Part shown: piece by piece, positions 7,013-51,884 of the stretch
Numbering within the stretch: position 1 is the first letter of the stretch
Layout: the number at the start of each line of letters is the position of its first letter
Source: Tumebacillus algifaecis
GTDB lineage: Bacteria > Bacillota > Bacilli > Tumebacillales > Tumebacillaceae
Reading direction: 5' to 3'
Assembly: GCF_002243515.1 (NCBI RefSeq)
Contig: NZ_CP022657.1
Span: 3,249,001-3,313,000 of the forward strand
DNA length: 64,000 nt
Notes under the pieces: model-generated
Seen by the model: the letters and a program-made list of their open reading frames with translations, nothing else
Databases searched by the model: none
Told to the model about the DNA's origin: nothing
Program-made: the position numbers and the translations under genes

Positions 7013-7392
7013 ACCCGTTCGAGTGGCAATCGAGTCAGCGTCAAAGTAAACGCGCCGCTTTCCAGCGTCACCTTTTGTTCATGCAAATCCACTTCCACAT
7101 CCTGCGGATCGATCGGCAATGTGACCACGCTCGGCTCTTCCGCTTCCAGCACCCCGCTCATCTCCTGAAACAGAAATTCGAGCGCCACTTCCGTTTCCAG
7201 CTCAGACATCACAATATCACAAAGATCGAACTGGCCGTTAAATTGAGCCAGCACCAGATCGGTCACACTCTCCCCACGCTCCACCTGCATCTCAAGCCGA
7301 ACTGATACTTTCTCATCGGCAAACATCGTCTCCAAGATCTGTACCAGATCATCCAGCCCGCTCAGCGGTTCAAACATTTCAAGCGATTCCAT
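7009..7392 (-). CDS. Acidic protein of unknown function
   Basis: 127 residues from the ATG at 7392, which follows CGGAGG at an 8-nt spacing. It is rich in Glu, Leu and Val and has no membrane segment. Its stop overlaps the start of the MutT-like gene by 4 nt. I do not recognise the family; co-translation suggests a role with the NUDIX enzyme, but that is inference. Confidence 0.7.
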   Translation of the reverse strand: MESLEMFEPLSGLDDLVQILETMFADEKVSVRLEMQVERGESVTDLVLAQFNGQFDLCDIVMSELETEVALEFLFQEMSGVLEAEEPSVVTLPIDPQDVEVDLHEQKVTLESGAFTLTLTRLPLERV

Positions 7393-7441
7393 CAGCGATT
7401 CCTCCGTTCTGTCTCTAAATTTTATCATTAGTGTCTGTAGT

Positions 7442-7469
7442 TTGTCGAAAGTGAGTCCCTGTTTATGCT
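7442..7469 (+). promoter_or_regulatory. Probable sigma-A promoter of the selenoprotein gene
   Basis: TTGTCG (7442-7447), a 16-nt spacer and TATGCT (7464-7469), about 50 nt upstream of the start codon. Confidence 0.5.
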
Positions 7470-7521
7470 AAACTAACTGCGTAAGACACTATCACTCACT
7501 CAGTAAAGGGGGAAATACAAC

Positions 7522-7767
7522 ATGGAAAAACCGGTGATCACACTGGCCTATTGCAACTCTTGAAACTATTTACCCAAAGCCGTCAGGTTGACGGACGAAC
7601 TTCTTGCCCACTTCACGACGAAAATCGGTGAATTCACGCTGATCCCAAGCAGCGGCGGCGTTTTTGAAATCACCTTTGATGGAGAATTAATCTTCTCCAA
7701 AAAAGAGTTGGGACGCTTTCCAAACGACGGCGAAGTGCTGGAACTCTTCAAGCCGCGAATTCCCTAA
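7522..7767 (+). CDS. SelT/SelW/SelH (Rdx) family selenoprotein with in-frame UGA
   Basis: Reading from the ATG at 7522 (behind AAAGGGGG) gives MEKPVITLAYCNS, then TGA at 7561-7563, then NYLPKAVRLTDELLAHF and the family hallmarks IPSSGGVFEI and LIFSKKELGRFP, ending at TAA 7765-7767. The TGA falls exactly at the second position of the CxxC/CxxU redox motif (Cys11, Sec14), so the product is an 81-residue selenoprotein. A hairpin 16-31 nt after the UGA fits a bacterial SECIS. Ordinary gene callers would stop at codon 13. The family has a thioredoxin-like fold and a presumed redox role. Requires selA, selB, selC and selD elsewhere in the genome. Confidence 0.88.
7579..7595 (+). promoter_or_regulatory. 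Candidate bacterial SECIS hairpin
   Basis: CCGTCA (7580-7585) pairs perfectly with TGACGG (7589-7594) around the loop GGT. It begins 16 nt after the UGA, and a G is the first loop base, as expected for SelB recognition in bacteria. Confidence 0.65.
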
Positions 7768-7774
7768 CATAACG

Positions 7775-7812
7775 AAAGGCAGCCCGGATTCTCACAGGCT
7801 GCCTTTTTCTTT
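7775..7812 (+). terminator. Rho-independent terminator of the selenoprotein gene
   Basis: AAGGCAGCC / GGCTGCCTT stem with a 13-nt loop, then TTTCTTT. It may also act on the opposing pseudokinase gene. Confidence 0.85.
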
Positions 7813-9313
7813 ATTGAGAGACGTAAAATGTGACATCGGTACCTTGTGGCGCTTGGGTACCTGCCTCCGGAGACTGGCTGTGCACCGTACCGGAAGGCGT
7901 ATCGCCTTGATTGATATAAAACTTATAGTGATACCCGTGTTTGAGCATCAACTGTTCTGCTTCCTGTTTGCTCAAACCGCGCAGATCGGGTACCTGACCG
8001 ACTTCCGTTTGCTGTCGAGGACTCTGACCATTCGGAAGTTCGTTGCGCTCCCCCGGTTGTTGCGCAGCATCGGCCGTACCGTTTACGGTCAGGATGATCA
8101 TCTCTCCCTGCCCTTTCACGCTGGTACCGGGATCGACCGACTGGCGATAAATCTTACCTTTCGTCTCCCCGTCTTCTGTCGCGCTGTATACCCATTGTAT
8201 CTTCGCTTCCGGATAGCCATTGCCAGACAGCACCTGCACCGCTTCCCGCTCCGTCTTGCCCAGCAGATTCGGCATCGCAAACTGTCTGGTCGTTTGCTGG
8301 TTGGCGCCGGTCGAAGCGGTTGACGTATCATCGCCAAGCGACCACCACAGTCCTCCGATCAAGAGCACGACCAAGACGAGTATTCCAACATAGGGCAGGA
8401 TCGAAAAGCGCTTCGGCGTACTTTGCTCCGCCACTTTTTTGGCAAACTCCATATGCCGTAGCTTCGCGACCTTTTCCATCCCTTCTTGCGCCGCATCAAC
8501 CATCGAATCCTTCATCCGCTCCAGATAGGATGCGTTCTGCTCACGTTCTGCTCGCGCCGGCAACGGACGATCCGCCAGTTGGCCTAACGCATGGTGCACC
8601 GCCTTCACATCGCGATGCAAGTCGTGAATCGATTCATAACTTCCCTGCGCCAAAAAGCCCAATGCTCGCAGCACCACGCGCTCAGCGCGTTCAGGCAGCC
8701 AATGATGTTCTGCACCCGCCTCTTTCAGGCTGGCCTGCACCTCCTGTATCACCTGTGGTACTGGTGACAGATGTGAGTATGGTTTGCCTGTCAGCATCTC
8801 ATAGAGTAGCACGCCGATCGTGCGAATCAGATCCAGCTCCGTCTGCGCTCGCCCTGAAAGCAAAGGCCCGTACCCGATCACCTTGAGGAAGCCATCCTGA
8901 TTGATCAGCACGCTGTTCGGCTCGATCGAAATCTCCACGATCCCATGCTTCTCCGCTTGCACCACCGCGCTGGATAACTGCCGTGCGATGTCGATCACCG
9001 TTTTGGCCTGCACTCTGCCTTGCACGCGCATCCAACGGCTCAGTGTATCCCCTTCCAAATCTTCCGTAATCAAATAAATGCCATCCGCTTCCACGACCAC
9101 ATCATATACGCCTAGCAGATGCGGATGATGCAGCCCGGCTGCTTTGGCAATCTGCTGTTCCCAATGTTGACGGTTCGAATCCGTCACGTTTCCCGACAGG
9201 CGCTTCACCGCCACTTGACGCCTCAGCGATTCATCGTATGCCAAAAATAGATCGGATGCACCGCCGATCGCTTCCTGCAGCCGATACCGGCCTGCCAAGA
9301 CTCGCTCGTTCAT
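7811..9313 (-). CDS. PASTA-domain Ser/Thr kinase homologue, probable pseudokinase
   Basis: 500 residues: kinase-like domain (about 8-270), transmembrane helix (about 305-327, PYVGILVLVVLLIGGLWW) and two extracellular PASTA repeats (about 344-413 and 440-500). The VAVK lysine (Lys37) is present. The catalytic HRD is replaced by E127-I128-S129, the following K and N by E131 and S134, and DFG by G147-Y148-G149. The glycine loop is also poor. PASTA kinases sense lipid II or muropeptides, so this may be a catalytically dead sensor or scaffold. The start at 9313 follows GGGGGG; the upstream frame to 9394 has no ribosome site. Confidence 0.85.
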   Translation of the reverse strand: MNERVLAGRYRLQEAIGGASDLFLAYDESLRRQVAVKRLSGNVTDSNRQHWEQQIAKAAGLHHPHLLGVYDVVVEADGIYLITEDLEGDTLSRWMRVQGRVQAKTVIDIARQLSSAVVQAEKHGIVEISIEPNSVLINQDGFLKVIGYGPLLSGRAQTELDLIRTIGVLLYEMLTGKPYSHLSPVPQVIQEVQASLKEAGAEHHWLPERAERVVLRALGFLAQGSYESIHDLHRDVKAVHHALGQLADRPLPARAEREQNASYLERMKDSMVDAAQEGMEKVAKLRHMEFAKKVAEQSTPKRFSILPYVGILVLVVLLIGGLWWSLGDDTSTASTGANQQTTRQFAMPNLLGKTEREAVQVLSGNGYPEAKIQWVYSATEDGETKGKIYRQSVDPGTSVKGQGEMIILTVNGTADAAQQPGERNELPNGQSPRQQTEVGQVPDLRGLSKQEAEQLMLKHGYHYKFYINQGDTPSGTVHSQSPEAGTQAPQGTDVTFYVSQ

Positions 9314-48767: not shown

Positions 48768-48890
48768 CCCTATCAGCCCTTTCTACTTCCTGCTTATTTT
48801 TTATTATATCATTCAAACCAGAGCAGGAACACCGACAGAACACCGCGAAATTTCCAATCAATGACTAGAAAATGAAGGAGAATGCCTATA

Positions 48891-49715
48891 ATGGTATCAA
48901 TTGACAAGACACGAGAATTTGTTTTCAAACACGGTGCACTTTGGGAGCGCAGCTTGTTTTCCTATCTGTTCGACGGCGGCTCCCTTCAACATTTGCACCA
49001 CAGCCTGCTCGCTTATAAAAATGAGGACGGTGGTTTCGGGCACGGTATGGAGCATGACATCAAATGCCCAGATTCCAATCCGCTGGCCTTAGAATTCTTG
49101 TTGACCGTTGTGCGGGAGACTGGCATTCCGGCCGGGAATCTGTTCGACAACAGCTCAGCATGGGTTGAACGCAACCGTGCCGAAGATGGCTCCTTGAAAA
49201 ATCCTCCCACGCTGCACAACTTTCCATATGCACCGTGGTGGAGCGAAAATGGTCAAACCGTCCCCGCATCCACCGTCGGCAATTTGCGCCGCCTCGGGCT
49301 CAGCACGCCCGTTTTAGAAGAATCGACAGCGAAATGGGCAGCAGAACATCTCAACGTCGAGCAGATTGCCAACAACGACTGGCTGTTCATGGCTTTCCAA
49401 GCCTTTGACTATTACCTAACCCTAGAAGACACGGCGGACACTCGTCCTTTGCGGGAGGCGACGATCCAAAACATCATCAAATTGGCGGAGAAAGCGCCAG
49501 AGAAAAGTTTCTTTACCCTGTGCCATTACATATCCGATCCCCATTCAGAAATGACGCAGGCCGTACCGCCCGCCCTGCTCGACAGACTGCTCACCCATCT
49601 GAGCACCACACAGCGCGAAGATGGCGGCTGGAACGATGAACACGACCTGCTGTACTGGCAGCCGTACATGTCCACCTTGATCCTGCTCACGCTCAAAAAC
49701 CATAACCGACTGTAG
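48891..49715 (+). CDS. Prenyltransferase/squalene-cyclase-like alpha-barrel protein
   Basis: 274 residues. The motifs NEDGGFGHGMEHDIKCPDSN and QREDGGWNDEHDLLYWQPY are QW-like repeats of alpha/alpha-barrel terpene cyclases and prenyltransferases. The DxDD acid of squalene-hopene cyclases is not evident and the protein is half their size, so the activity is uncertain. The start at 48891 follows AAGGAG; the ATG at 48882 is too close to it. Confidence 0.7.
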   Translation: MVSIDKTREFVFKHGALWERSLFSYLFDGGSLQHLHHSLLAYKNEDGGFGHGMEHDIKCPDSNPLALEFLLTVVRETGIPAGNLFDNSSAWVERNRAEDGSLKNPPTLHNFPYAPWWSENGQTVPASTVGNLRRLGLSTPVLEESTAKWAAEHLNVEQIANNDWLFMAFQAFDYYLTLEDTADTRPLREATIQNIIKLAEKAPEKSFFTLCHYISDPHSEMTQAVPPALLDRLLTHLSTTQREDGGWNDEHDLLYWQPYMSTLILLTLKNHNRL

Positions 49716-49935: not shown

Positions 49936-50218
49936 CTACTACTGCTGATAGATTCATTCCCGCAAGCACAACGACGATCATTAGAGAATCGGATTGATAG
50001 AGAAGAATTTTGTGAGGTCCTGTTCATCAGGAGTCTCATTCGTTGCTCGAAATGCTTCAACACAAGTGAACGAGGATTCAAACAGGCATGGTCTTCGGAG
50101 CCATATGGTCGCAAGAGAGGTAGGGCTTGCGATGTTTCCAGATCGTTGAATCTGGTTCTCCTAAGTTTGATCGAAACGCTAAGAGCTTGGTATCGAAATG
50201 ATACCAAGCTCTTTCTAT
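49936..50218 (+). ncRNA. Candidate structured small RNA, about 280 nt
   Basis: The interval between the consensus promoter and the terminator at 50181-50218 has no ORF with a ribosome site, but several local hairpins: TCCTG/CAGGA near 50020, TTCA/TGAA near 50063, ATGG/CCAT near 50090, and CCAGAT/ATCTGG near 50143. It does not show the signature sequences of 4.5S RNA, tmRNA or RNase P RNA. The next gene is on the opposite strand, so it is not a leader. I cannot name the family. Confidence 0.65.
50181..50218 (+). terminator. Rho-independent terminator of the candidate RNA
   Basis: AAGAGCTTGGTAT / ATACCAAGCTCTT perfect 13-bp stem followed by TCTATTTCT. Confidence 0.9.
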
Positions 50219-50390: not shown

Positions 50391-51884
50391 TTACAGCATC
50401 GAGCCCGTTTGTAGATAGCGTGCATGCCAAGCCAGCGCATCTTCCAACAGATGCGGCGTGTGGCCGCCGCGCTTGAGCGCTTCGTTATAATAGTCGAGCA
50501 GGGCGTCCTTGTAAAGTGGATGGGCACAGTTGTTGATCACGACTTTGGCCCGTTCACGAGGCGCAAGACCGCGCAGATCGGCCAGTCCTTGCTCGGTTAC
50601 GATGATGTCCACATCATGCTCGGTGTGGTCGATATGCGAGACGAATGGCACGATGCTTGAGATCTTGCCATCTTTTGCAGTCGATTTGGTGACAAAGATA
50701 CCGAGCAAAGCGTTGCGAGCAAAGTCACCAGAACCCCCGATCCCGTTCATCATATTGCTCCCCATGATATGCGTCGAATTCACGTTGCCATAAATGTCGC
50801 ATTCGATCGCTGTGTTGATGCCAATCAGCCCGAGACGGCGAATGATCTCCGGGTGGTTGGAGATTTCCTGAGGACGTAAGACGATCTTGTCCCGATACTT
50901 GTCAATATTCGGAATCACCTCGGCCGCACGCTCCGGCGAAAGTGTGATCGAGCAGGCTGACGCAAATTTCACCTTCCCCGCATCCATCAAATCAAAGACC
51001 GCATCTTGCAACACTTCAGAATACACTTCAAGGTCGGTGCAATCCGACTTTAAAAAACCATGCAAAACGGCGTTGGCCACCGAACCGATCCCCGACTGCA
51101 ACGGCGCCAAATTATATGGCAATCGGCCTTGTTTCACTTCCTGATCAAAAAAATCGATCAGGTGTCCAGCCATCACTTCCGTTTCAGCATCTGGCGCTTT
51201 GATCGCAGAAGTCGAGTCCGATTTTTCAGTAATTACAACGGCTACCACTTTTTCTGGGTCGATCGCAATATACGGTGTCCCGATGCGCTGTTCGACAGAC
51301 GTCAGCGGAATCGGTTGCCGCTTACCGCGCATCCCTGGCTCATAAATATCATGCAGCCCTTCCAAGCCCAGCGGCTGCGCTACATTCAATTCCAAAATAA
51401 TCTGACTTGCCAGCTCCGCAAAAATCGAAGAGTTACCCACCGATGTAGTCGGAATGATATAGCCCTCTTCTGTGATCGCTACAATTTCGATGAGTGCCAC
51501 ATCGATCGGCGGCAAGAATCCGTTACGCACTTGTTCGGCCGTATGTGACAAGTGCTGGTCGATAAAAAGCAGCTCACCTTGGTTGATCTTGTTCCGCATT
51601 TTACGTTCGTTCTGAAACGGCAGTCGCTTATTCACAATCCCTGCTTCCGCCAAGATGCCGTCCACCTCATCACCGATCGACGCACCTGTGAACAGGTTGA
51701 TCTTAAGCTCTTCTCCGCTTTTCATCACACGCTCTGCGAGCGCCAGCGGCACAATTTTTGCATCACCGGAGCGCGTAAAGCCACTCATTCCTACGGTCAT
51801 CCCGTCTTTGATCAGGAGCGCCGCTTGGTCAGAATTCATTATTTTATCAAAATAGGCACGGTTTCTAATTCGTTGTTCGATCAT
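50391..51884 (-). CDS. Acetyl-CoA hydrolase/succinyl-CoA:acetate CoA-transferase family protein
   Basis: 497 residues. GMTVGMSGFTRSGDAKIVPL, PLQSGIGSVANAVLHG, the presumed catalytic glutamate in LEVYSEVLQDAVFDLMDAGK, and THIMGSNMMNGIGGSGDFAR match the AarC/Ach1-type CoA-transferases. It moves CoA between acetate and succinyl-CoA. A perfect cre motif lies about 24 nt upstream, suggesting CcpA catabolite repression, and a LytTR regulator gene lies immediately upstream on the same strand. Confidence 0.92.
   Translation of the reverse strand: MIEQRIRNRAYFDKIMNSDQAALLIKDGMTVGMSGFTRSGDAKIVPLALAERVMKSGEELKINLFTGASIGDEVDGILAEAGIVNKRLPFQNERKMRNKINQGELLFIDQHLSHTAEQVRNGFLPPIDVALIEIVAITEEGYIIPTTSVGNSSIFAELASQIILELNVAQPLGLEGLHDIYEPGMRGKRQPIPLTSVEQRIGTPYIAIDPEKVVAVVITEKSDSTSAIKAPDAETEVMAGHLIDFFDQEVKQGRLPYNLAPLQSGIGSVANAVLHGFLKSDCTDLEVYSEVLQDAVFDLMDAGKVKFASACSITLSPERAAEVIPNIDKYRDKIVLRPQEISNHPEIIRRLGLIGINTAIECDIYGNVNSTHIMGSNMMNGIGGSGDFARNALLGIFVTKSTAKDGKISSIVPFVSHIDHTEHDVDIIVTEQGLADLRGLAPRERAKVVINNCAHPLYKDALLDYYNEALKRGGHTPHLLEDALAWHARYLQTGSML

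Follow-up and report, generated by a model that had tools for sequence, protein, structure and literature searches.

Does the TGA triplet that interrupts a short frame in the chromosome of Tumebacillus algifaecis end translation, or is it read as selenocysteine (Sec)? The frame lies on the forward strand at positions 7522-7767 of a 64,000-nucleotide stretch of DNA, here called the window, which corresponds to C1:3249001-3313000 of a genome made up of a single contig of 4,516,965 bases. We are close to certain that this locus, referred to below as selW, encodes a SelW-like selenoprotein in which UGA 14 would be decoded as Sec by means of SelA, SelB, SelD and a bSECIS hairpin, the product being a predicted thioredoxin-like redox protein. 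For selW there is direct support for the frame, its family, the predicted fold, the conserved UGA, a covarying hairpin and a complete set of Sec genes.

The selW gene, its family and its predicted fold

With TGA translated as U, the frame comprises 81 codons, from an ATG at 7522-7524 to a TAA stop at 7765-7767, and holds a single in-frame TGA (7561-7563, codon 14); its product begins MEKPVITLAYCNSU, residues 11-14 forming a CNSU motif. The earlier note had claimed, from the letters of the window, that reading through this TGA restores an 81-residue protein of the SelT/SelW/SelH type, with the UGA exactly at the Sec position of a CxxU motif. The motif is where it was said to be, and the profiles agree on the family: the frame scores 81.7 bits against Pfam PF10262 (Rdx; cut-off 22.6) and, for the SelT/W/H models of NCBIfam, 98 bits against NF041051 (cut-off 88) and 65.4 bits against TIGR02174 (cut-off 34.2). 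A direct reading of the sequence suggests a probable ribosome-binding site, AAAGGGGG, at 7505-7512 on the forward strand, 9 nt 5′ of the ATG. Beyond the stop codon, an inverted repeat at 7775-7806, followed by a T-rich stretch on the forward strand, is a possible terminator; the scan gives this stem on the reverse strand only. The promoter scan of 7380-7850 returned one site, on the reverse strand, and none for selW, and a search of the window with Rfam, using gathering thresholds, returned nothing at selW. The sole Rfam match in the window was the small RNA BsrC, on the reverse strand at 50057-50145 (45.4 bits; cut-off 38), between the listed frames 48882-49715 (forward) and 50391-51884 (reverse).

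An AlphaFold model (mean pLDDT 89.7, pTM 0.75) was built on an alignment (A2) of which 22 of the 28 rows were used, close relatives being omitted. It places the CNSU motif between a strand (residues 5-11) and a helix (residues 17-34), and the product is predicted to adopt the thioredoxin-like Rdx fold. Twenty-one PDB chains match the model at E <= 0.001; the first in rank is 2fa8 (Agrobacterium Atu0228, SelW-related), with the same predicted fold (TM 0.94, 42% identity), and thioredoxins rank lower than the bacterial Rdx structures. These same bacterial Rdx proteins are also the nearest solved chains by sequence, together with, weakly, mouse SelW (2npb), a distant relative for which the sequence match has an E of 0.0013 and the fold a TM of 0.69. 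The CxxU motif is taken to suggest a redox function in SelW-like proteins, according to PMC1088965; on an Rdx fold, it points to thiol redox chemistry of the T. algifaecis protein. In such a cycle, Sec14 would attack the oxidised substrate, Cys11 would act as the resolving residue by forming a selenylsulfide with Sec14, and the protein would then be re-reduced by a cellular thiol system.

Conservation of the UGA and the Sec machinery

A scan of genome contigs found 29 relatives of the SelW-like protein, 28 of which have the motif, with TGA at the codon in 27 and TGT in one (L037). Scoring covered 89 loci, redundant ones included (e.g. the pairs window/L052, L009/L054, L010/L066, L018/L069 and L065/L111); L036, which is truncated and lacks the motif, was dropped. 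TGA occupies the codon in 85 of these loci and TGC or TGT in the remaining four. One match, in genome G091, has one TGA and one TAA, and was scored as a TGA form because its TGA sits at the motif. A sequencing error at 7561-7563 was considered as well and is unlikely, given how many loci have TGA at the same codon.

The same counts bear on the possibility that the TGA is a true stop, i.e. that a nonsense mutation in a former Cys codon has turned a SelW/Rdx gene into a pseudogene. One change from TGC or TGT to TGA would suffice for this, and the folding of the single sequence, as described below, is unremarkable. However, the loci that share the TGA come from several phyla, judging by record titles, the frame past the TGA is conserved, selA, selB, selD and tRNA-Sec are all present, and the hairpin covaries; we therefore give the pseudogene practically no chance of being the right explanation.

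The presence of a Sec system in this strain had been predicted in the earlier note, with the absence of selA, selB and selC named beforehand as an outcome that would speak against Sec. The system of T. algifaecis is in fact complete, with selA, selB, selC and selD on the one chromosome that also carries the window, each above its cut-off. The selA gene (C1:1553640-1555001) scores 603.8 bits (cut-off 267.9) and selD, directly downstream (C1:1555051-1555980), 412.8 bits (cut-off 125); selB (C1:3877002-3878870) scores 381.1 bits (cut-off 242.25), and tRNA-Sec (C1:1395225-1395317), whose anticodon is TCA by ARAGORN, 62.2 bits (cut-off 47). Of 30 matches to tRNA-Sec across the genome, only one other exceeds the cut-off, with 48.8 bits, and ARAGORN identifies it as a tRNA-Ser. 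In 14 control genomes, the cut-off was passed by selA in 1, by selB in 2, by selD in 2 and by tRNA-Sec in 5. The selD frame (L048) contains one in-frame TGA of its own and reads EKAGUGCK around it; SelD of T. algifaecis is probably itself a selenoprotein. Next to selB, on the same strand, is a frame resembling thioredoxin reductase, a name that comes from frame reading alone.

SelD makes selenophosphate, SelA turns the serine on tRNA-Sec into Sec, and SelB brings the Sec-tRNA to the bSECIS. For selW, selenophosphate from SelD and the action of SelA would give Sec-tRNA-Sec, and SelB carrying it would bind the hairpin 16 nt 3′ of the UGA and insert Sec at codon 14. That Sec is actually inserted at this codon we infer from the sequence evidence.

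A class sample comprised 398 genomes, with a SelW relative in 55 and selA above the cut-off in 85; the TGA form occurs in 53 genomes, all 53 of which have selA (base rate 85/398; hypergeometric 6e-44, relatedness uncorrected). This leaves 32 genomes (85 minus 53) with selA and without a TGA-form relative. In two genomes the Cys form is the sole one; selA is present in G288, and G130 does not belong to the set with selA above the cut-off. In a sample of the window's order, selA was above the cut-off in all 14 genomes and a SelW relative was present in 13, with one TGA in each of the 14 matches (one genome gives two). The earlier note had called selenoproteins rare and patchy in aerobic Bacilli. 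With selA in 85 of the 398 class genomes and in every genome of the order sample, this statement needs softening, and since the rarity was overstated, so was the surprise; in the sampled part of the order, the use of Sec, and of a Sec-type SelW, is regular.

A covarying hairpin downstream of the UGA

The hairpin with a GGT loop that the earlier note had placed 16 nt downstream of the UGA was found as described. The sequence CCGTCA-GGT-TGACGG (7580-7594, forward strand, within the coding sequence) forms a 6-bp stem whose A-U pair closes a GGU loop, with an energy of -7.8 kcal/mol and a gap from the UGA of 16 nt to the stem and of 22 nt to the loop. The limits for bSECIS elements given in PMC13188914 are a loop of 3-9 nt with G in the first two positions, a stem of 4-16 bp, 16-37 nt between UGA and loop, and an MFE <= -7.5 kcal/mol; the selW hairpin, in which G comes first in a 3-nt loop, lies within all of them. 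In eukaryotes, SECIS elements sit in 3′ UTRs (PMC1088965). Taken alone, the energy of the selW hairpin showed no gain over dinucleotide shuffles (z of 0.26 for 60 nt and -0.86 for 39 nt). Since the energy of this single sequence is unremarkable, it is the comparison of relatives that supports the hairpin.

Alignment A1, used for this comparison, holds 78 of the 79 unique Sec sequences, L111 being left out because an inserted codon puts it out of register. Pairing holds in 93.6% of the cells among these 78 relatives; column shuffles give 77.1% (none of 500 reaches 93.6%), and sliding the partner gives 22.8-55.4%. Two-sided changes affect 66 cells, against 18.9 in shuffles (0/500), and the stem variants among relatives include CCATC/GATGG, CCGCC/GGCGG, CCGCG/CGCGG, CCGCA/TGCGG and CTGCC/GGCAG. 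The number of pairs with a two-sided change, 4 of 5, is not above chance, as shuffles average 3.4 and 233 of 500 reach the observed value.

Synonymous recoding, in which the protein is preserved, gives a second control. All five pairs form in 64 of the 79 unique Sec sequences, and in those 64 a mean of only 14% of the synonymous versions form them. Over all 79 sequences, the mean number of pairs is 4.63 where recodings have 3.60, and the mean best-hairpin score is 15.6 where recodings have 7.3. The 33-nt stretch folds to a mean of -8.3 kcal/mol in the natural sequences and of -5.5 kcal/mol in recodings, and the median share of recodings with an energy as low is 11%. For the selW of the window alone, 14% of synonymous versions form the five pairs, 22% fold as well and 2% reach its best-hairpin score. 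The 15 unique Sec sequences without all five pairs in the selW register include 12 from records of clostridial or Tissierellia type and one (L111) from the window's order, and each of the 15 shows some hairpin by a looser score. As a set, the hairpins exceed chance, and the conserved hairpin 3′ of the selW UGA can be taken as a putative bSECIS. The four Cys forms keep 3, 2, 0 and 2 of the five pairs. Among these four, L093 and L110 nevertheless fold well in the region, to -10.4 and -10.2 kcal/mol; energies that low occur in 5.7% and 4.3% of their synonymous recodings, respectively, and the loss in Cys forms thus holds for the selW-type stem only (n = 4).

These results also weigh on a different view of the TGA, namely that low-level readthrough inserts Trp or some amino acid other than Sec, so that the gene yields two products. 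Some UGA readthrough does happen in bacteria. But the TGA occupies the Sec position of a CxxU motif, the hairpin covaries at bSECIS spacing and selA accompanies the TGA form without exception in the class sample, all of which makes simple readthrough very improbable, and decoding as Sec is the reading that we retain.

The hairpin may also leave a mark on the protein. Its 5′ arm spans the codon of residue 21 and its 3′ arm that of residue 24, and the residues at these two positions are V-T in 36, A-A in 27, I-M in 4, I-V in 3 and other pairs in 9 of the 79 unique Sec sequences (L111, with its shifted register, is included in these counts). Base pairing between the codons would predict the main combinations, through GUC/G-AC, GCC/G-GC and AUC/G-AU, with I-V accommodated by G-U; among the sequences with all five pairs, the four combinations are in part forced by the pairing criterion itself. 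The four Cys forms have S-A, M-A, L-S and A-A, one of the four sharing A-A. Base pairing in the hairpin seems to couple residues 21 and 24, which carries a warning: part of the residue covariation seen in families of this sort may stem from the RNA and not from protein contacts.

Relatives, gene order and possible roles

The protein family to which selW belongs is already known. SelW-like selenoproteins were described in the 2005 Sargasso Sea survey (PMC1088965) and counted in 35 organisms in 2016 (PMC5029168), and family tables of 2022 and 2026 give CxxU as their motif, with AOH51717.1 as example (PMC9312934, PMC13188914), and, in the 2026 table, one Sec. CxxU, the family score (PF10262, NF041051, TIGR02174), the predicted fold and a hairpin in bSECIS position are common to selW and the known bacterial SelW-like (SELENOW-like) proteins; we found no difference in kind, and selW is another Bacilli member. 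Its closest relative among the named records found is from Tumebacillus avium (L009; family Alicyclobacillaceae in the NCBI taxonomy), with 88% protein identity, the same TGA and the same stem CCGTC/GACGG, but CNMU where T. algifaecis has CNSU. On the use of Sec by Tumebacillus or Alicyclobacillaceae, a search of the open-licence literature brought up no relevant paper, judging by titles and the beginnings of abstracts; reports outside that literature may exist.

A variant motif was observed in two distinct Bacilli genomes. These SelW relatives read UTGU, with TGA at both motif positions: L010 (4028-4042), from Ammoniphilus sp. YIM 78166, whose DNA is the same as that of L066 along 3225 bases, and L067, in whose reverse complement the motif is at 1528. 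L010 and L067 share 80% DNA identity over 207 bases there. There is one hairpin for the two UGAs, which are 9 nt apart. The accessible parts of the 2022 and 2026 tables list only CxxU for SelW-like proteins (PMC9312934, PMC13188914), and a limited search of partly accessible literature found no UxxU SelW.

Besides selW and selD, the TGA-bearing genes found in T. algifaecis are three HesB-like candidates. The families searched were formate dehydrogenase alpha, AhpC/TSA, HesB/IscA and selenouridine synthase. HesB/IscA gave four matches in the genome, three of them with one in-frame TGA and a downstream hairpin: L115:465-752 (C1:1102567-1102797), L116:458-757 (C1:1126257-1126556) and L117:486-776 (C1:2293091-2293339). 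The hairpin is near-identical in the three, TTGGCTC-TGGAT-GAGCCAA with small changes, and starts 17-20 nt 3′ of the TGA. As the three frames score above the Pfam cut-off and below the NCBIfam cut-offs, we regard them as candidate selenoproteins. AhpC/TSA gave 12 matches, none with a stop, selenouridine synthase gave no match in the genome, and the three formate dehydrogenase alpha matches have no in-frame stop. One of the latter, L112 (C1:2224907-2226913), scores 854 bits; without an in-frame stop, it has no Sec within the matched range.

What SelW does in these organisms could be related to where its gene stands. Among the class-sample genomes with a TGA form, 13 of 53 (G329, G321, G232, G347, G299, G352, G103, G254, G091, G192, G343, G338 and G388) have selW immediately 5′ of selA in the same orientation, with a gap of 54-682 nt; the adjacency was not found in another 39 of the 53, many of which are drafts. 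In T. algifaecis the two genes are far apart (selW at 3256522, selA at 1553640). Such proximity might be the sign of a Sec island or of a connection with the handling of selenium. The latter would fit a protein that contains Sec and whose main role is not general thiol redox chemistry but the handling of selenium, as donor, carrier or sensor of selenium status, a view that shares the gene reading defended here and differs from it in function only. The gene order, together with the small number of Cys forms among the scored loci, speaks for it; the separation of the two genes in T. algifaecis and in most TGA-form genomes speaks against it, and where they are close, the joint transfer of a Sec island may be the whole reason. 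On balance we consider a main role in selenium handling rather unlikely, and thiol redox chemistry remains the function that we favour for selW.

The position upstream of selA and the fact that Cys forms are seldom found are also the basis for a bolder idea, that the selW of Bacilli does not merely depend on the Sec system: the UGA at about codon 14 might act as a selenium-sensing gate on the downstream selA, or the protein might serve as a selenium carrier in the synthesis of Sec. The scarcity or lack of Cys forms of SelW-like proteins in organisms that use Sec had already been noted in PMC1794560. We regard this idea as a long shot; if it is true, translation past the selW UGA would couple the expression of selA to the supply of Sec. 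As a member of a known family, the selW of T. algifaecis is a well-founded, if rather unremarkable, finding. It is, at the same time, a clean example of a gene shortened by plain gene calling, for which independent lines of evidence agree.
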